From Phaffia rhodozyma (lineage: Eukaryota > Basidiomycota > Tremellomycetes > Cystofilobasidiales > Mrakiaceae), in contig JACGZH010000008.1 in NCBI GenBank assembly GCA_014706385.1, forward strand, positions 1,240,001 to 1,304,000: a stretch of 64,000 nt of DNA, read 5' to 3'. The notes under the pieces were generated by a model, which saw only the letters and a list, made by a program, of their open reading frames with translations, did no database searches and had not been told where the DNA came from. The position numbers and the translations under genes were made by a program. Positions within the stretch are counted from its first letter, which is position 1; each line of letters starts with the position of its first letter. Below are positions 56,011-64,000 of the stretch, one piece after another.

Positions 56011-56328
56011 AGCGAAGAGATACCAAGGAAGAGTCAAGATATAACCAAGAGAGAGTTGAGCAGTACCAAAAGACTGTTGCAAGAATGGGTCTACATTGCG
56101 CAAGGTCACCCTGCGCGGGTCCAACCGGGTCAACTCATGACATCCAGTGTCATATTCTAAAGCAGAGACGATGATCAATTCAAAGGGAGCAGAATCTAAC
56201 AAGATAACCTGGTAGATATTGAGAGTGACAATTTCTGATTCAACATGATCGTTATTTTGGTATGATGCTATCAGAAACAGAGTCTTGGTTGCAAAACCAC
56301 ACGGAATCTCTCGGCGGGGGGCAAAAGA

Positions 56329-56410
56329 TGAACAGAGGGGGATTCGAACCCCCGCATCTTGCGATATCAGAACTTGAGTCTGACGCCTTAGACCGCTCGG
56401 CCATCTGTCC
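56329..56410 (-). tRNA. tRNA-Leu(CAA)
   Basis: Acceptor GGACAGA pairs with TCTGTTC, discriminator A. Anticodon stem TCAGA/TCTGA closes loop CTCAAGT, anticodon CAA. A long variable arm, as expected for leucine. T arm GGGTTCGAATCCC. No intron. First gene of the array. Confidence 0.95.
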
Positions 56411-56440
56411 GGATGGGGTGCGTGAGGTGTGTGTGGGTGC

Positions 56441-56490
56441 GGGAGTGTGCGGGAGTGTGCGGGAGTGTGCGGGAGTGTGCGGGAGTGTGG
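56441..56490. repeat. GGGAGTGTGC tandem repeat, five 10-bp units
   Basis: Five consecutive 10-bp units between the first two tRNA genes; the last unit has one change. Confidence 0.9.
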
Positions 56491-56529
56491 GCCGGGTAGA
56501 GCGAGTGCACCCTGCCCGGGCACACACAC

Positions 56530-56615
56530 GCCCCGTTGGCAGAATGGTAACGCGTCTCCTTCCTACTGTCTGGTGAGAGAGGTGAAGATTCTGGGTTCAA
56601 TCCCCAGGCGGGGTT
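56530..56615 (+). tRNA. tRNA-Arg(CCT) with 14-nt intron
   Basis: Acceptor GCCCCGT/GCGGGGT. Loop TTCCTA, anticodon CCT, then an intron at 56566-56579 after A37. The anticodon stem TCTCC/GGTGA has one T-T mismatch. The D-arm and TGGCnnAATGGTAACGC layout match the fungal CCU-Arg tRNA. Confidence 0.85.
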
Positions 56616-56803
56616 TCTCTTTTTTTGCGGCGGGCGTGGTTGGGGTGTGAGTGGGGTGTGAGTGGGGTGTGAGTGAGAATGTGAGTGAGAAGGTGGGTGA
56701 GAATGTGGGTGTACACGTGAGACGCTTGGTATGCTGGCGGGCTGTAGAGTGTGGACTGTATGCGCAGGGTATAGGACTGATGTATGTGGACCCTCCCATC
56801 AAG

Positions 56804-56875
56804 GGGATGTTCGTATAATGGTTATTATTCCAGATTTCCATTCTGGAGACAGGTGTTCGATTCACCTACATCTCA
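56804..56875 (+). tRNA. tRNA-Gly(TCC)
   Basis: Acceptor GGGATGT/ACATCTC, discriminator A. Stem CCAGA/TCTGG with loop TTTCCAT, anticodon TCC. T arm AGGTG TTCGATT CACCT. No intron; 72 nt. A T-run terminator follows. Confidence 0.95.
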
Positions 56876-57053
56876 TTTTTGTCATTTTTTTTTTGTGCGC
56901 GTGGCGGGGGCGGAGGCGGTGGCAGTACAAGACACTGTGCGGACGGCGGCAAGACTCTGAGGCACACGACCGGGGCGTGGGAGGGGCTAGTTGGATGGTG
57001 GCGTTGGTGTCTAGGGGTACGGGCCGGGCTGGGGACTATAACCGCCCTGTTAG

Positions 57054-57137
57054 CTCAATCGGTAGAGCGTCAGACTCTTACCCAGTCTCTTGACAGTTGG
57101 CATCTGAAGGCTGGGGGTTCGACCCCCCCATGGGGCT
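57054..57137 (+). tRNA. tRNA-Lys(CTT) with 21-nt intron
   Basis: Acceptor GCCCTGT/ATGGGGC. Stem TCAGA/TCTGA, loop CTCTTA, anticodon CTT; intron 57081-57101. T arm GGGGG TTCGACC CCCCC. Confidence 0.93.
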
Positions 57138-57355
57138 AGCTTCGTTTTTGTGTGTTGGTGTGATTTTTTGTTTCTGTTTCTGTTTCTGTTTTCGTTCTTT
57201 GTGTTTTTGTTTGCTGGCTTGGTGTGTGCTTGGTGGGCCGTCGACGGTGGAAGGGTGCATGGAGGGTTGAACAGAGGTGAGAGGTGGGTCGGCTGGTGGG
57301 TCGCGCGGGCATGTCTGACGATCTGGGCTGGCAGCACGGACAGACAGACACACAC

Positions 57356-57428
57356 GGGGATTTAGCTCAGTTGGCAGAGCGCAATCTTAGCATGGTTGAG
57401 GTCGTGAGTTCGATTCTTACAATCTCCA
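57356..57428 (+). tRNA. tRNA-Ala(AGC)
   Basis: Acceptor GGGGATT/AATCTCC, discriminator A. Stem CAATC/GGTTG, loop TTAGCAT, anticodon AGC. T arm GTGAG TTCGATT CTTAC. No intron; 73 nt. Confidence 0.95.
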
Positions 57429-57633
57429 CTTTTTTGTGTCGTTTTTTTTGTGTTTTTTGGTAGTCTTTTTTTTTTTTTTTTCCGCCCGCTGCCTTTTCTT
57501 GCACTCTCTTCTTTCGCTCTGCTCCTCTCGGTCATGCTCCGTCCTGCCCACCACATCACACACCATGTGTTGCACCGAGACAGGCCGGCTGCTGCGAGCA
57601 CACTGGCCGACCGGCCGGACAGGCCCTCATCCA

Positions 57634-57726
57634 GGTGAGGTGGCCGAGTGGTCTAAGGCGCTGTGTTAAGGCTCTTTCTATGCCCCGCAGTCAGTAATGG
57701 CGCGAGTTCGAATCTCGCCCTCATCA
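57634..57726 (+). tRNA. tRNA-Leu(AAG) with 13-nt intron
   Basis: Acceptor GGTGAGG/CCTCATC, discriminator A. Stem CTGTG/CGCAG, loop TTAAGG, anticodon AAG; intron 57672-57684. Long variable arm. Close sequence relative of the Leu(TAG) gene at 58439. Confidence 0.93.
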
Positions 57727-57897
57727 CTTTTTGTCCGGCCGGCACGGGCCGTGCCTCTCGGGTCTGCCTGGCCGGGCTGTGCTCTCAGGTGCGGTGCCAT
57801 GGTAGTATGATGCCACGTTGCAACACTGCCACACCCCCTTGCTGTCTGCCGGTCCGTTTTGGACTGTGGACTGAATGAACAGACCGTACAGCATCCA

Positions 57898-57968
57898 ACA
57901 GCTGTGGTGAAATGGTATCATTGGTGCTTGCCATGCACTAGGCCGGGGTTCGATTCCCCGCGGTTGTA
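57898..57968 (+). tRNA. tRNA-Gly(GCC)
   Basis: Acceptor ACAGCTG/CGGTTGT closes with three G-T/T-G pairs and an A1-T72 end pair, unusual for Gly. Stem GGTGC/GCACT, loop TTGCCAT, anticodon GCC. T arm CGGGG TTCGATT CCCCG. No intron. Confidence 0.88.
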
Positions 57969-58159
57969 TCCTTTTTTTTTCTCGTCCCACACACCGATCG
58001 GCTCTGTGCTGGCGGGTGCACATCTGCCGATCGTCCGTGTTCGGTCTCGCCGGCTGGTGCGATGATGGTGTGTGCTGCCGTTCGGACGAGCAGTGCGTCT
58101 GTGCCGACACAGGGGCAGGACACGAAGGACGTACCGACGCGCTCGGTGGACACCAACCG

Positions 58160-58232
58160 TCCTTCTTAGCTCAGTTGGTAGAGCGCGACACTAGTAATGT
58201 CGAGGTCAGTCGTTCAAATCGGCTAGCAGGAA
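58160..58232 (+). tRNA. tRNA-Thr(AGT)
   Basis: Acceptor TCCTTCT/AGCAGGA with one mismatch at 5-68. Stem CGACA/TGTCG, loop CTAGTAA, anticodon AGT. T arm AGTCG TTCAAAT CGGCT. No intron. Confidence 0.9.
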
Positions 58233-58438
58233 CATTCTTCTTTTTTTTTATTCTCCGTTCCGTTCATTTCTTCTTCTTCTTTTTCTGTTGTATCCTTCCC
58301 TGTCGCCCCGGCGGGCGTCTGGTCGACGCGTGCTCGTTAGGGTTCCGCACAAAGCACAGCACCACACCACACCACACACCACAAACAACACCACAAACAA
58401 CACCACAAACAACACCACAAACGCAGGGAAAGCATGCT

Positions 58439-58537
58439 GGTGAAGTGGCCGAGTGGTCTAAGGCGCTGTGTTTAGGTCTCTCTTCCGAGTCCAGACCGCA
58501 GTCAGTAATGGCGCGAGTTCAAATCTCGTCTTCATCA
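58439..58537 (+). tRNA. tRNA-Leu(TAG) with 19-nt intron
   Basis: Acceptor GGTGAAG/CTTCATC, discriminator A. Stem CTGTG/CGCAG, loop TTTAGG, anticodon TAG; intron 58477-58495. Long variable arm. Confidence 0.93.
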
Positions 58538-58571
58538 TTCCTTTTGTCCCGGCCAGGGGGGCAGGGCAGCT

Positions 58572-58653
58572 GGGGATTTAGGCTAGTTGGTAAACTGGAC
58601 GCTTCGCACTGTCGATCATGTGTCATTCCTGGGTTCGATTCCCGGAGTCTCCA
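58572..58653 (+). tRNA. tRNA-Ala(CGC) with 10-nt intron
   Basis: Acceptor GGGGATT/AGTCTCC, discriminator A. Stem GACGC/GTGTC, loop TTCGCA, anticodon CGC; intron 58609-58618. Starts only 34 bp after the preceding tRNA. Confidence 0.9.
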
Positions 58654-58810
58654 TCTCTTTTTGGTGTGTTTCGGTGTGTTTTGTTTTATCTTGGCGTATT
58701 TGATTTCGTTGCATTTCATATGGCATGTTGTGTGTCGTGTTCTGTGTGTCTTCTCTTGGTCTGCTGCCCACCGGCTTGTGCTCACCGCTCACCGAGCGGC
58801 GTCCATCCAA

Positions 58811-58920
58811 GGCCGTTTGGCGGAGTGGTCTAACGCGGTAGCCTCGAACGAGTCCCCTCTGTGGGACGACGCGACAGCTACTCTTCTCTGAAGGCGTAGG
58901 TTCAAATCCTACAGCGGTCG
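58811..58920 (+). tRNA. tRNA-Ser(CGA) with 27-nt intron
   Basis: Acceptor GGCCGTT/AGCGGTC, discriminator G as in serine. Stem GTAGC/GCTAC, loop CTCGAA, anticodon CGA; intron 58849-58875. Long variable arm (CTTCTCTGAAG). Confidence 0.94.
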
Positions 58921-59062
58921 TCCTTTCTCTTTTTCTTTTTGCCCACTTCCGTTCTCTCTGCCTTCTGTCGCGTCGATCCTTCCTTGCTGTCTGTGTTTGC
59001 TGTCTCCGCATGCTCACACCCCGCCAGGCAGACAGACAGACGGGCTGACGGGCTGCCATCGT

Positions 59063-59156
59063 GCGTGATTGGTGTAGTGGTATCACGCCAAGTTTGGGCA
59101 CACTTTCTGCCGTGCACATCTCTTGGAGGTCTTCGGTTCAATCCCGGAATCGCGCC
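59063..59156 (+). tRNA. tRNA-Pro(TGG) with 22-nt intron
   Basis: Acceptor GCGTGAT/ATCGCGC, discriminator C. Stem CCAAG/CTTGG, loop TTTGGG, anticodon TGG; intron 59099-59120. T arm TTCGG TTCAATC CCGGA. Confidence 0.93.
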
Positions 59157-59287
59157 TTTTTGTTCGGCCCGTCTGGGCGGGTGGCGTGGTCGGTGTAGGG
59201 TTACTTGCTGTGTCAGTTGCTGTGTTACTTGCTGTGCTACTCATAGGATTACCCGCCACATAGCGTCCGCTGTTACCCTATGCTGTG

Positions 59288-59493
59288 TACTCTTTTTTTT
59301 TTTCTTTTTTCTTTTTCCTCTCCCGTTTTTTCTTTGTCCTTTTTCTTTCCTCTTTTTTCCTCTTTTTTCCTTCTTTTTTCCCTTCTTTTTCCCCCTCTTT
59401 TTTCCCCTCTTTTCCCTCTTTTCCCTTCTTTTCCCTCTTTTCCTTTTTTCTTCTTTTTTCTTCTTTTTTCTTCTTTTTTCTTCTTTTTTTTCT
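59288..59493. repeat. 206-bp polypyrimidine tract inside the tRNA array
   Basis: Almost pure T/C on the plus strand, made of irregular TTTTTTC, TTCCC and TTCTTTTTTC units. It fills the largest tRNA-free gap of the array (59157-59688). No gene is seen in this gap; a run of similar GAGAACACAA units lies at 59581-59616. Confidence 0.9.
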
Positions 59494-59699
59494 GTCAACG
59501 ATAGATGCATCAATATAGAAAGAGAAAAAGACATATGGCAGAAAGACAACAGCATAACAATGGCAACACAGTAAAAACATAGCGAGAACACAATGAGAAC
59601 ACAACGAGAACACAACCATGCAATGCAATGCACCAGCAACACAGTGTCAACACAGTGTCAACACAACAGAAAGACCAAAACAAAAGAAGGCAAAGATCC

Positions 59700-59796
59700 T
59701 CGTAGTCAGACGCCTTACCGCTGGGCCACTCGGCCAGAGCGAATGGGTGGTGGGACCACTAGACCAAGACGGGGTTCGAACCCGCGATTTCCTGAT
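59700..59796 (-). tRNA. Circularly permuted tRNA-Arg(ACG): 3' half upstream of 5' half
   Basis: Read on the minus strand, the first segment (59796-59761) is tRNA positions 38-73: A38, TCAGG (39-43), AAATC, T arm GCGGG TTCGAAC CCCGT, CTTGGTC (66-72), T73. A 25-nt spacer follows. The second segment (59735-59700) is positions 1-37: GGCCGAG (1-7), TG, D arm GCCCAGCGGTAAGGC, G26, TCTGA (27-31), CTACGA (32-37, anticodon ACG). Joined in tRNA order, the acceptor pairs 7/7 (two G-T), the anticodon stem 5/5 (one T-G), and the D and T arms are complete; total 72 nt. The stem-loop TCTGA/CTACGAA/TCAGG is that of fungal Arg(ACG). In normal gene order neither half has a partner. Seen directly in sequence; expression and maturation are inferred. 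Confidence 0.85.
59736..59760 (-). other. Spacer joining tRNA 3' end to 5' end in the permuted gene
   Basis: 25 nt between T73 and G1. On the minus strand it contains GTGGT CCC ACCAC, a 5-bp hairpin with a 3-nt loop. In known permuted tRNAs the equivalent spacer is removed by the 5' and 3' end-processing enzymes. Confidence 0.6.
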
Positions 59797-59844
59797 GCAT
59801 ACAAGCTGGCAGCCGGCCATGACGACCGTTCCACCATCTTTGCC
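59797..59844 (-). other. Leader of the permuted tRNA with anticodon-pairing segment
   Basis: 48 nt upstream of position 38. It starts with the inverted-repeat arm and ends CTTGTA-TGC. CTTGTA (59805-59800) can pair with TACGAG (anticodon region, 59702-59699 and neighbours: T33 to the G after A37), like the anticodon-intron pairing of ordinary tRNA introns. It also contains TGGTGGAACGG, which resembles a Pol III A box. Confidence 0.6.
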
Positions 59845-60029
59845 TTTAGCTTTCGTCTGGTTGTGTGGATGTATGGCCAAGTGGATGTGTGGGCGTTGGC
59901 TCTGCTAGGGTTATCCGAGGCGGTGGGCGTCCGGCCGATCCGTCCGATCGCCCATCGGATATCGGACGTCGGACGTCGGACGTCGAGCCCCGGAGTACGG
60001 AGCCCGGCGGAGAAAAGGCCGTGTCGATC

Positions 60030-60113
60030 GGTCGCCTGGTCTAGTGGTATGACGCTTGCTTCACATCTCACCCGGTGCGCAATAGGTCGCCAGTTCGATC
60101 CTGGCGGTGACCA
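60030..60113 (+). tRNA. tRNA-Val(CAC) with 12-nt intron
   Basis: Acceptor GGTCGCC/GGTGACC, discriminator A. Stem CTTGC/GCAAT (one mismatch at 27-43), loop TTCACA, anticodon CAC; intron 60066-60077. T arm GCCAG TTCGATC CTGGC. Confidence 0.9.
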
Positions 60114-60337
60114 TGACGTCTTTTTGCCCTCAGCACACGCCCACGATGGACAGACCGAGAGAAGCCATCGCAAGATAAGATGCATGATAAGATACACAGC
60201 CAGCCGACAGAGATGGCAGATAAGATCGACAGACACGATCGATCGGCAAGAAAGAAAGAAAGAAGATAAGATGGCGATAAAGACAAAAGACAAAAGACAA
60301 AAGATACAAGATAAAAGCCAGGTCGGCAAAAAGACAA

Positions 60338-60437
60338 GGCGCGATCCCGGGATTGAACCGAGGACCTCCGTCAGACACGTGTTTCATGCGAGCCAGCAAA
60401 GCCCGAAGACGGCGTGATACCACTACACCAATCCCGC
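60338..60437 (-). tRNA. tRNA-Pro(CGG) with 28-nt intron
   Basis: Acceptor GCGGGAT/ATCGCGC with a G-G mismatch at 4-69, discriminator C. Stem CCGTC/GACGG, loop TTCGGG, anticodon CGG; intron 60374-60401. Same 3' end as Pro(TGG). Confidence 0.9.
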
Positions 60438-60515
60438 CAGTGATCGCACAGGCCTGGCCGGTCAGTTTGTCGGTCTCCAGCCGGCCGTCCGTCCGTCCGT
60501 CCGGGAGGCAAAAGA

Positions 60516-60613
60516 TACTCCATATGAGGTTCGAACTCATGATCCTTGTTAAGCACTAGAGGCACGGACGGCAACCTATAAGAACAATGCGATAACCACT
60601 TCGCCAATGGAGT
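60516..60613 (-). tRNA. tRNA-Ile(TAT) with 25-nt intron
   Basis: Acceptor ACTCCAT/ATGGAGT, discriminator A. Stem TTGTT/AACAA, loop CTTATA, anticodon TAT; intron 60552-60576. T arm ATGAG TTCGAAC CTCAT. Confidence 0.93.
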
Positions 60614-60775
60614 AAAGGTAAGCGTCGGTGGAAAAAGACGAGACAGGACGAGACAGGACGAGACAGGACGAGAGAAGGCCGCACCGGACGGCACACGCCA
60701 GACCGGGCCGAGTCCGACAGAAGACGGCACAGGCGGCAGGAGGAAGGACGGGAAAAAGAGGGCAAAAAAAAGGAA

Positions 60776-60858
60776 AGGTCCTACTCAGATTCGAACTGGG
60801 GATTCGAGAAGGTGAGTCAATCAGAATCTCGCGTGATAACCAACTTCACCATAGAACC
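60776..60858 (-). tRNA. tRNA-Gln(CTG) with 10-nt intron
   Basis: Acceptor GGTTCTA/TAGGACC. Stem CGAGA/TCTCG, loop TTCTGA, anticodon CTG; intron 60811-60820. T stem CCCAG/CTGAG with one mismatch. Confidence 0.9.
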
Positions 60859-61050
60859 GGTCGTTGTCGGCCTATTGCCCTCGCGAGTCTCGTTCCGGCG
60901 GTGTGTCCGCTGGCAAGGGTCCGTCGGCGCGTGTCCGCTGGCAGGTGTGCTTACATCGCTGGCCGACCTGTCCGCCCGCCGCACGTGGCCCGGCCGGCAT
61001 GACACGCACGGCCGACCCGATACACACAGCGGACATCGGAGCAAAAAGCA

Positions 61051-61123
61051 AGCCCAAACGCGGATTTGAACCACGGACCTCACCGTTACGAGCGGCGCAC
61101 TATAACCACTTAGCTATTCGGGC
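61051..61123 (-). tRNA. tRNA-Thr(CGT)
   Basis: Acceptor GCCCGAA/TTTGGGC. Stem CGCCG/CGGTG, loop CTCGTAA, anticodon CGT. T arm CGTGG TTCAAAT CCGCG. No intron. Confidence 0.93.
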
Positions 61124-61274
61124 CTGGTGCCCGTCGCCCGGTCGTGTTGTCTCTAAGGGTGTTGGTGTGTCGATGTGTTGGTGTACCGGTGTGGTCAGGA
61201 CCCGGCCCACACCGTCCGCTCGGCCAGACGTAGCCCATCGAGGTCGACCGCCGGGGCGGCTGGGCAGTCAACGT

Positions 61275-61361
61275 GCCTGGGTAGTTTAGTGGTAAAACGT
61301 AGGTCTCATACCGTCACCCGAGTGTGATCCTCAGCCGCGAGTTCGATTCTCGCTCTGGGCA
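61275..61361 (+). tRNA. tRNA-Met(CAT), elongator type, with about 15-nt intron
   Basis: Acceptor GCCTGGG/TCTGGGC, discriminator A. Loop CTCATA, anticodon CAT; intron about 61311-61325. The anticodon stem TAGGT/ATCCT pairs only 3 of 5, so the intron limits are uncertain or the stem is weak. T arm GCGAG TTCGATT CTCGC is intact; TTCGA (not ATCGA) marks it as an elongator. Confidence 0.78.
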
Positions 61362-61603
61362 ACTCTTTTTTTTCCTCTTTTGCTGTGTTTCCCATCCTTC
61401 CTGATGGTTGGTGGGCGGCCGGGCTGGGCCAGGCGGAGGTGCGGTCGGATCCGGCCGTCAGATGGGCTGAGCATGACGGCAGTGGAAGTGGCGGCGGTGG
61501 CGGTGGCGGTGGCGTCGGCAGTGCTGATGACGACGACGACTGCTGCTGCGCAGAGTCCGCTTGGACGAGAATCTATCCGGACAAACGGTGCTGGCACCAT
61601 ACC

Positions 61604-61690
61604 CGCCGCTTAGCTCATCTGGAAGAGCGTTGGTTTGTAAAGGATACACTTGTTCACCGAAGGCACTCGGTTCGATCCCGAGAGCGGCGA
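61604..61690 (+). tRNA. tRNA-Tyr(GTA) with 14-nt intron
   Basis: Acceptor CGCCGCT/AGCGGCG with the C1-G72 pair and A73 expected of eukaryotic Tyr. Stem TTGGT/ACCGA, loop TTGTAA, anticodon GTA; intron 61641-61654. Confidence 0.94.
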
Positions 61691-61912
61691 TCTTGTTTTT
61701 TTGCCTTTTGCTTTTTGTTCTTTTTTGTTCTTTTTTTTCTGCCTTGTGGCTGCTTCCTCTTTGACTGCTAGGGTTCCTGCCTTCGGTCCAGTCCGGTCGC
61801 TCTCACGCAGCATGCGCACTGTCTCGGCCAGACGGGCGATGCGACCGATGACGTTCTCCCAGCTGCTGCTGCCGATGTAGTGGTCACCGGGGCAGGGCAA
61901 GTGATCATATCT

Positions 61913-62011
61913 GGCCGATTGGTGTAGTGGCTATCACAGCAGTTTTCGGTACTCGTCCGCAAGGTCGTCTTCGCTCGCTGCTGGTCGTCGGTTCGATCCC
62001 GACATCGGTCT
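61913..62011 (+). tRNA. tRNA-Glu(TTC) with 28-nt intron
   Basis: Acceptor GGCCGAT/ATCGGTC. Stem AGCAG/CTGCT, loop TTTTCG, anticodon TTC; intron 61949-61976. T arm GTCGG TTCGATC CCGAC. Confidence 0.92.
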
Positions 62012-62225
62012 AAATGTTCACTTTTTGTGTCCCCCTTTCTTTTTTGCCCTCCTTTTTGCCCTTCTTTTTCTCTGCACGCTCTCTCTGCACTCTGTTTCTA
62101 TCGGCCGTTGTGTGGGTCACTGTCTGTCCGACCGGTCTGGCCTGTGTGCGCGTGTCCACCACGGTCGAGCCAGGTCGACACAGCTCCCTGTGGTGGGGCA
62201 GGCAGACGGGCGGGAAAACAAAAAA

Positions 62226-62299
62226 AGACCCATACCCGACTTGAACGGATGACCTCAAGATTTGGAATCTTGCGCTGCTACCAACTGAGCTAATGGGTC
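62226..62299 (-). tRNA. tRNA-Trp(CCA)
   Basis: Acceptor GACCCAT/ATGGGTC. Stem CAAGA/TCTTG, loop TTCCAAA, anticodon CCA. T loop TTCAAGT. No intron. T-run terminator immediately downstream. Confidence 0.94.
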
Positions 62300-62456
62300 G
62301 CTTGCCCGGAGGCTCCGTGCCCAGAGGGTATGTCGAGCGCCCGGCTGGCTGGCCGTACAGACGGTGGCACCATGCGGCCGGCTTGCAGGCCTCCAGCACG
62401 GACGGCCGGACGGGGGCTAGGGAAAAAACCGAGGGAAAACGAGCAAAAAGACAATG

Positions 62457-62528
62457 TTGCCAAGGCCCGTCTCGATCAGGCGACCTCCGGGTTATGAGCC
62501 CGGCGCGCTTCCACTGCGCTACTTGGCA
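62457..62528 (-). tRNA. Initiator tRNA-Met(CAT)
   Basis: D arm GCGCAGTGGAAGCGC, stem CCGGG/CCCGG with loop CTCATAA, and T loop ATCGAGA (A54, A60) are initiator hallmarks. Acceptor TGCCAAG/CTTGGCA, discriminator A. The end pair is T1-A72, the reverse of the A1-T72 usual in eukaryotic initiators. No intron. Confidence 0.93.
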
Positions 62529-62579
62529 TTGATGGGAGACCATGGCTGAGGAGTGTGTATGTGGTGTCGGCCGCAGGTC

Positions 62580-62672
62580 ACGTGCCGGTGTCGATGTCAG
62601 TGTCGACGTCAGTGTCGATGCCAGTGCCAGCACCAGTGTCATTACCAATGCCAGTGTCAATGCCAGTCACAC
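62580..62672. repeat. Degenerate CAGTGTCGATGC-type repeat between tRNAs
   Basis: About 90 bp of irregular 12-bp units (CAGTGTCGACGT, CAGTGTCAATGC and similar) in the spacer between initiator Met and Ile(AAT). No coding function apparent. Confidence 0.75.
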
Positions 62673-62736
62673 CATCGACTGGTGCGACCGACGGTACACC
62701 TGGCCATGGTCTGCCGGGTGGGCCTGACAGTCATCG

Positions 62737-62810
62737 GATCGATTAGCTCAGTTGGTTAGAGCGTGGTGCTAATAACGCCAAGGTCGCGGGTTCGACCCCC
62801 TCATTGATCA
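62737..62810 (+). tRNA. tRNA-Ile(AAT)
   Basis: Acceptor GATCGAT/ATTGATC, discriminator A. Stem TGGTG/CGCCA, loop CTAATAA, anticodon AAT. T stem GCGGG/CCCTC with one mismatch. No intron. T-run follows. Confidence 0.93.
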
Positions 62811-63066
62811 CTTTTTCTTTCTTTTTCTAATTTTCGCCATCTTTTTTTGCCATCTTTTTTGCACCCCTCCTGTTCTCGACCGTTGCGGTCTGTGTGGCAT
62901 TGTTGTCGACTGGCACGCTCCATGGTGAGCGATGCAGTGTTGTGACGGTGTGACGATGTGGTGGTGCAGTGGCGACGATGGGAACGCAGATATACACCCG
63001 GCTGTGCTGGACAGTGTCCGACCAGACATGGGCCTATGGTGTCTGGGCTGGGCTGGGAGGCATCGT

Positions 63067-63153
63067 GCATGCTTGGTGTAGTGGTATCGCGCCATGTTAG
63101 GGTCTTTGCGCCTTGTCTCATGGAGGTCCTCAGTTCAATCCTGGGAGCGTGCC
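63067..63153 (+). tRNA. tRNA-Pro(AGG) with 15-nt intron
   Basis: Acceptor GCATGCT/AGCGTGC, discriminator C. Stem CCATG/CATGG, loop TTAGGG, anticodon AGG; intron 63103-63117. T arm CTCAG TTCAATC CTGGG. Confidence 0.94.
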
Positions 63154-63362
63154 TTTTTTCCTTTTCCTTTCGTTCTTTGTTTCCTTTTCCCGAGCGCTTC
63201 CTGTCGCTCTTCGTTGTTTTCTGCCACTTTTCACTCACTTTTTGCCACTCTCCGCCACTTTCTCGGCAGCAGACAAGCGATGTGTGCACCCGGTGGAGAC
63301 GTCTCTGACGCATGGACAAGCTGTCTGGACAAGGTGTCTGGACACGGATGACAGCCATCAAG

Positions 63363-63434
63363 TCCTCAATTGTCTAACGGCTATGATAACCGCCTCTCAC
63401 GCGGTAGGCCCGGGTTCGACTCCCGGTTGGGGAT
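63363..63434 (+). tRNA. tRNA-Glu(CTC)
   Basis: Acceptor TCCTCAA/TTGGGGA. Stem ACCGC/GCGGT, loop CTCTCAC, anticodon CTC. T arm CCGGG TTCGACT CCCGG. No intron, unlike Glu(TTC). Confidence 0.94.
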
Positions 63435-63664
63435 CTCTCTTTTGGTCTTTTCTTTTGCTCTCGTTTCTTTTTTTCTTTTTTTCCTTGTCCTTCTTTCCTT
63501 TCGTCTTTCTGTTTCGTCTTGTTTTTGTATGTCCGTTCTGACCACTGGTATCAGCGCTGGTGTGTGCCTGCGGGTACTGTGTGGTTGAATGCACGGTATG
63601 GGGTGCATGCACCGGCCAGCTGTCCAGCCACCTGGCGAGCGGACAAGGCTGACATCCAACCGAC

Positions 63665-63736
63665 TCTTGGATGGTCTAACGGTTATGATTTCCGCCTGTC
63701 ACGCGGGAGACCGGGGTTCGACTCCCCGTCCGGGAG
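63665..63736 (+). tRNA. tRNA-Asp(GTC)
   Basis: Acceptor TCTTGGA/TCCGGGA, discriminator G. Stem TCCGC/GCGGG, loop CTGTCAC, anticodon GTC. T arm CGGGG TTCGACT CCCCG. No intron. Last tRNA before the right edge. Confidence 0.93.
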
Positions 63737-63769
63737 CACTTTTTGCCTTTTGCTCCTCTCTTTTGTACT

Positions 63770-63817
63770 TGCATTTGTACTTGCATTTGCATTTGCATTT
63801 GCATCTGCATTTGCATT
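63770..63817. repeat. TGCATT/TGTACT hexamer repeat
   Basis: Seven to eight copies of a 6-bp unit (TTGCAT with TTGTAC and CTGCAT variants) downstream of tRNA-Asp. The remaining bases to 64000 are CT-rich with no gene seen. Confidence 0.85.
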
Positions 63818-64000
63818 TTTTCTTTCCATTCTCTTTTGCTGTACAGCTGTATGGTTGTCTTGCTTTGTTGTGTTTGTCCGTCGACGGCCATCGATCGTTA
63901 TCTTTTTTTCTTTGGTCTGTATGTCTCCTTCTTTTTCTCTTTCTTTTTCTTTTGCTCTCTTTGACGGCGCATGTTTGGCAGCACACGCTCCGAAAGACGC

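Follow-up and report, generated by a model that had tools for sequence, protein, structure and literature searches.

A candidate circularly permuted tRNA-Arg(ACG) gene repeated in the tandem tRNA arrays of an apparently fungal nuclear genome

Permuted tRNA genes are known from few lineages. A 2014 review counts 34 of them, spread over six algae and one archaeon, mostly with the junction between positions 37 and 38 and with spacers of 1-74 bases over all permuted types, and states that most eukaryotes are without such genes (PMC3978253). Arg(ACG) is absent from the 34 genes of Table 1 in that review, which describes TATA-like signals upstream of the permuted genes and, for Cyanidioschyzon merolae, unusual splicing enzymes and a lack of TFC1 and TFC3 homologs (PMC3978253). 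The green alga Auxenochlorella was reported in 2025 to have permuted tRNA genes, and its likeness to the present case is that the genes were found because the usual tRNA search had left the set incomplete (PMC12636532).

The stretch of DNA analysed here, called the window throughout, is 64,000 nucleotides long and corresponds to positions 1240001-1304000 of contig C13 in a 19.77-Mb assembly of 15 contigs. The first-pass annotation of the window had placed the 3′ half of a tRNA-Arg(ACG) before its 5′ half, and the sequence bears out both this order and the coordinates given for it, with the 3′ half (59796-59761) lying upstream of the 5′ half (59735-59700) on the same, minus, strand. The parts of the locus, with the evidence for each, are as follows.

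59761..59796, minus strand: 3′ half, tRNA positions 38-73 (sequence, ARAGORN on the joined halves, pairing)
59736..59760, minus strand: intervening sequence of 25 nt joining both acceptor ends, without a T4 run (sequence, alignment of copies)
59700..59735, minus strand: 5′ half, tRNA positions 1-37 (sequence, ARAGORN on the joined halves, pairing)
59772..59782, minus strand: B box, in the T arm (sequence)
59826..59836, minus strand: leader sequence that resembles an A box and matches TRGYNNARNNG in full (motif; putative function)
59836..59846, minus strand: leader arm of a leader-trailer clamp (11 Watson-Crick pairs with 59687-59697; in the lowest-energy fold)
59800..59805, minus strand: leader stretch for a 6-bp anticodon-leader helix (fold with the cloverleaf enforced)
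59687..59697, minus strand: trailer arm of the clamp (complement of 59836-59846)
59681..59686, minus strand: T4 run (59685-59682), RNA polymerase III terminator-like, directly after the trailer arm and the only such run at the locus, downstream of the 5′ half (sequence)
56258..64000, no strand assigned: first unit of the ~9.7-kb tandem tRNA array on the contig of the window, cut at the window end (copy searches, ARAGORN)

The earlier limits of 59689..59844 hold for the locus, and have to be widened for the complement between leader and trailer, which reaches 2 bases beyond them on each side.

This arrangement is like that of the type II genes of C. merolae and the prasinophytes in having the 3′ half first, both halves on one strand, a 37/38 junction and a short spacer (25 bases here), and also in having a downstream T run, a CCA that is not encoded and joined halves that form a standard tRNA. 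It is unlike them in that the host here is apparently a fungus and that the gene is found in at least 44 tandem-array copies; it also carries an A-box-like sequence in its leader, and the genome encodes a Tau95 domain, in contrast to the TATA-like signals and the lack of TFC1 and TFC3 homologs in C. merolae noted above. Compared to canonical intron-containing nuclear tRNA genes, the junction site is the same and the same endonuclease and ligase are expected to act on it, whereas the order of the halves is reversed and a leader and trailer replace the intron. We consider it very probable that the locus is a functional type II (37/38) permuted tRNA-Arg(ACG) gene in an apparently fungal nuclear genome, the array copies probably being the only source of this tRNA; it differs from the known type II genes in its host group, in its number of copies and in having a leader A box. 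To our knowledge, no permuted tRNA gene was previously known in any fungus. A literature search of titles and abstracts, with preprints and subscription papers largely outside its scope, found none, and the parts consulted of PMC3978253, PMC12636532, PMC8450103, PMC10085705, PMC4090602 and PMC13353863 contain no fungal case.

The two halves joined in tRNA order give a 72-mer that ARAGORN reads as tRNA-Arg(acg). A pairing check confirmed the stems described in the first-pass annotation, with 7/7 pairs in the acceptor stem (two G-T), 5/5 in the anticodon stem (one G-T) and normal D and T arms (D stem 3/3; T stem 5/5, one G-T), and inspection found T8, G15-C48, G18G19, T33 and TTC54-56 all present. 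The junction falls at 37/38, the canonical site in the anticodon loop, the exact cut sites being those implied by a standard 7-base loop. In collinear order the locus yielded no tRNA from ARAGORN, nor from cmscan at the gathering score (best sub-threshold Rfam matches: YrlA, 18.0 bits with a cut-off of 69; tRNA, 16.3 bits with a cut-off of 29), in keeping with the earlier statement that neither half works collinearly. A permuted-tRNA search, in which 160-base windows were doubled and passed to ARAGORN over 74 kb, recovered Arg(acg) split at the anticodon loop. Of the 70 distinct junction-spanning matches in the scan, almost every one came from a collinear tRNA, either wrapped round or lying nearby, and only Arg(acg) was found in 4 overlapping windows, at both copies within the 74 kb; five dinucleotide shuffles used as a control gave 12 matches in total, one of them in at least 4 windows. 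Folded by itself, the joined tRNA has an energy minimum other than the cloverleaf, the gap being 2.8 kcal/mol, and the same is true of 6 of the 14 usable collinear tRNA controls (gap range 0 to 3.5 kcal/mol; AsnGTT excluded from the count).

The permuted locus sits in a ~9.7-kb tandem unit, 44 copies of which were found on nine contigs. Sixteen units lie at the end of C13, and the other 28 copies at the right ends of C9, C10 and C12, at the left end of C11 and on the small contigs C4 to C7, which measure 19 to 55 kb and have array copies along their length. Because the orientation of the array relative to the contig end is the same on all five large contigs, arrays at chromosome ends would fit better than one broken internal array; inspection of the terminal 600 bases of C13 revealed no telomere repeat. 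Each unit has 34 tRNA genes, the permuted one and 33 collinear ARAGORN calls, the latter number being derived from 35 calls over a stretch that repeats two genes; the assignments of Ala CGC, Val CAC, Arg TCG and Arg CCT were re-read by hand. Such units bring to mind the tRNA arrays of Entamoeba. Literature searches on tandem tRNA arrays yielded no usable paper.

All 44 aligned copies are permuted, with the 3′ half first. Over 59700-59846 (147 nt comprising leader, halves and spacer), 39 of the 44 are identical to the copy in the window, one further copy, truncated where C6 begins, is identical as far as it goes, and indels occur in the remaining four (units 4, 9 and 11 of C13 and a copy on C4), so that at least 40 copies have both halves intact. 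A pattern for the 3′ half (positions 39-72, 34 nt) had 41 exact matches in the genome and one for the 5′ half (36 nt) had 42, neither with any match at 1-3 mismatches; the copies absent from these counts are the indel copies. Across the 16 units of C13, the permuted core shows 0 substitutions and one indel column in 147 bases. In 29 collinear tRNA genes (2,433 bases) the counts are 0 shared substitutions and 7 indel columns, and in 6,700 bases of intergenic sequence they are 107 and 413; within the trailer, 59680-59699 shows a single shared substitution together with two indel columns. Since 29% of intergenic 147-base array windows vary as little (at most one variable site), the conservation of the core is weak evidence, and we rejected it as proof of function. 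A tRNAscan-SE paper, by contrast, treats identical copies with identical flanks as a hallmark of repeats, one that authentic tRNA genes of fungi do not show (PMC8450103).

An ordinary Arg(ACG) gene at another place in the genome would have counted against the permuted reading, and none was found by half, BLAST or pattern searches. A BLAST search of the genome with the joined 72-mer, in which 40 candidates out of 44 were scored, gave 80 matches, each of them a half-length piece lying in the array. A pattern combining a TACGR anticodon with a T loop at intronless spacing had 39 genome matches, compared to 47 for a reversed control; with intron spacing it had 85 compared to 8, all but four of them within the array. 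We examined 43 stretches, namely the 39 intronless-pattern matches and the four intron-pattern matches outside the array, and ARAGORN at default settings called no Arg(ACG) in any of them, giving just Lys(ttt) and Gly(ccc) among 40 and nothing in the other 3. At a lowered ARAGORN threshold 3 of the 40 read as Arg(acg); their arms are implausible, and they were rejected. The joined anticodon arm, allowing up to 2 mismatches, matched the genome 4 times (reversed control, 3), and these were rejected too: 2 of the 4 keep ACG without T33, and ARAGORN at default or 85% called a tRNA in 0 of the 4. The exact 3′-half pattern had no match in viral contigs. A BLAST search with a generic fungal Arg(ACG) query gave 0 matches and is uninformative, because the array itself was also left unmatched. 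Of 2,082 candidates in the tRNA family search of the whole genome, 63 were scored, so a divergent collinear Arg(ACG) could be missed. An NCA2-like stretch has 3 CGT and 0 CGC codons, a MAP kinase exon has 0 CGT and 1 CGC, and four open reading frames that are candidate exons have 11 CGT and 4 CGC. Together, these results suggest that the permuted copies are probably the sole source of tRNA-Arg(ACG).

The sequences flanking the two halves would bring the ends of a precursor RNA together. Leader 59846-59836 and trailer 59697-59687 form a perfect Watson-Crick complement of 11 bp, a length reached in 0 of 20,000 shuffles. When the cloverleaf was enforced in the fold, U33-A37 and the first trailer base paired with leader 59805-59800 in a 6-bp helix; the unconstrained fold of the precursor was 9.6 kcal/mol better than the enforced one. 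A check for a BHB-like motif found both the anticodon-leader helix and the clamp, with C32 facing U at -3 and able to pair only with G at -2, one base out of register. In the 12 collinear array tRNA introns examined (window 57044-64509), all located at 37/38 and 10 to 28 bases long, 11 allow a pair between base 32 and intron base -3, G-U pairs being counted. A review describes duplexes between the anticodon loop and the intron as not required for splicing in yeast and Xenopus extracts (PMC4090602).

Signals for transcription may also lie in the flanks. The leader contains a match to TRGYNNARNNG that starts 54 bases upstream of the start of the B box. This motif is the A-box consensus. Its density in the window is 0.0006 per base, giving a chance of ~3% within 50 bases, and the leader A box is offered as a suggestion for this reason. 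The sequence does not support an origin of the locus as a relic of tandem duplication, the resemblance of the leader to the 5′ half having a shuffle p of 0.43 and that of the trailer to the 3′ half a marginal p of 0.055.

The genome encodes domains of the machinery that such a precursor would use. These include an RNA ligase domain of the T4 type (E = 3.9e-38), which we take to be linked to the fungal and plant Trl1, and a splicing-endonuclease domain that is over the cut-off on C11, with a second, borderline match on C10 (26.6 bits, or 27.4 with its neighbours, for a cut-off of 27). For TFIIIC, the Tau95 domain is encoded, as is a B-block domain, of a family that also matches in four prokaryote controls. 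Open reading frames of the window contain NCA2, UTP25, PDEase and other domains; the UTP25 exon had no match among solved structures, and a MAP kinase exon had its best solved-structure match in yeast FUS3 (6e-16), compared to about 3e-11 for MAPK1 chains. From these few matches, the FUS3-like exon and the T4-type RNA ligase, we take the nuclear genome, with some reserve, to be fungal, as the first-pass annotation did.

We infer from these features that the permuted locus is transcribed, and that its RNA is cut, joined and used in decoding. RNA polymerase III would produce a single RNA consisting of leader, 3′ half, spacer, 5′ half and trailer, stopping at the T4 run, and the A-box-like sequence of the leader may restore for TFIIIC the order of A box then B box. 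The two halves would pair into a cloverleaf, with the 11-bp clamp and the 6-bp anticodon-leader helix holding both ends at 37/38, where the splicing endonuclease would cut each of them. The T4-type RNA ligase would then join A37 to A38 into a circle, from which RNase P and tRNase Z would free the 25-nt spacer before CCA is added. It is likely, although we hold this with less assurance than the permuted reading itself, that the locus is the first permuted tRNA gene in fungi or in opisthokonts, that it provides an essential tRNA as its sole, multi-copy gene, that TFIIIC is recruited through the leader A box and that the ordinary splicing machinery performs the circularisation.

Three other explanations were weighed against a functional permuted gene. 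The copies could represent a scrambled tRNA pseudogene fixed by homogenisation of the array, the working Arg(ACG) gene lying outside the assembly or having been missed. Concerted evolution keeps any sequence uniform, as the 29% of intergenic windows that vary as little as the core illustrate, the contigs end inside arrays and the family search scored a small share of its candidates, all of which is compatible with this explanation; however, at least 40 of the 44 copies have two intact halves, and a pseudogene leaves unexplained the 11-bp clamp just outside the junction, the T4 run after the trailer and, within the searches made, the absence of any collinear match. We regard it as improbable.

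Less probable still is a split tRNA, as in Nanoarchaeum, with the halves transcribed separately and joined in trans. Split tRNA halves find each other through complementarity of leader and trailer, so that the complement seen here would also serve their pairing, and 44 copies would supply both pieces. Here, however, the halves do not occupy separate loci: they lie on one strand, 25 bases apart and without a T4 run between them, and a single transcript is expected for this reason. A local error of assembly is hardly credible. Tandem arrays are hard to assemble and four copies carry small indels, but a rearrangement of this sort, which had been named as grounds for abandoning the permuted reading, is excluded because all 44 copies, on nine contigs, have the same permuted order. 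The reading as a circularly permuted tRNA-Arg(ACG) gene is supported by the same 44 of 44 copies and by the lack of any collinear gene among the matches found.

If the functional permuted gene is real, its presence in a genome with TFIIIC, endonuclease and T4-type ligase domains would suggest that ordinary eukaryotic machinery is enough for a permuted tRNA, and a fungal case would support repeated independent origin of these genes. The locus would offer a way to test whether the anticodon-intron pair is needed, as well as the leader A box and the clamp. Since ARAGORN and Rfam scans miss the permuted locus, similar genes may be hidden in further fungi whose tRNA set looks incomplete.

Several observations concern other tRNAs of the genome. 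His, Gln TTG and Leu TAA tRNAs are among the isoacceptors not located with 63 of the 2,082 family-search candidates scored. Dispersed tRNA genes outside the array include Arg(TCT), Thr(TGT), and Lys(TTT) and Gly(CCC), the last two with an intron. At about 61275-61361 of the window lies a tRNA whose anticodon is CAT and whose anticodon stem is unusual; it is probably an elongator Met tRNA with an intron. A T (U) at position 73 is common to the Arg ACG, TCG, CCT and TCT tRNAs read here (sites 59761, 62011 and 56615, and loci L001-L003 and L006-L010; Arg TCG and CCT assigned by hand).
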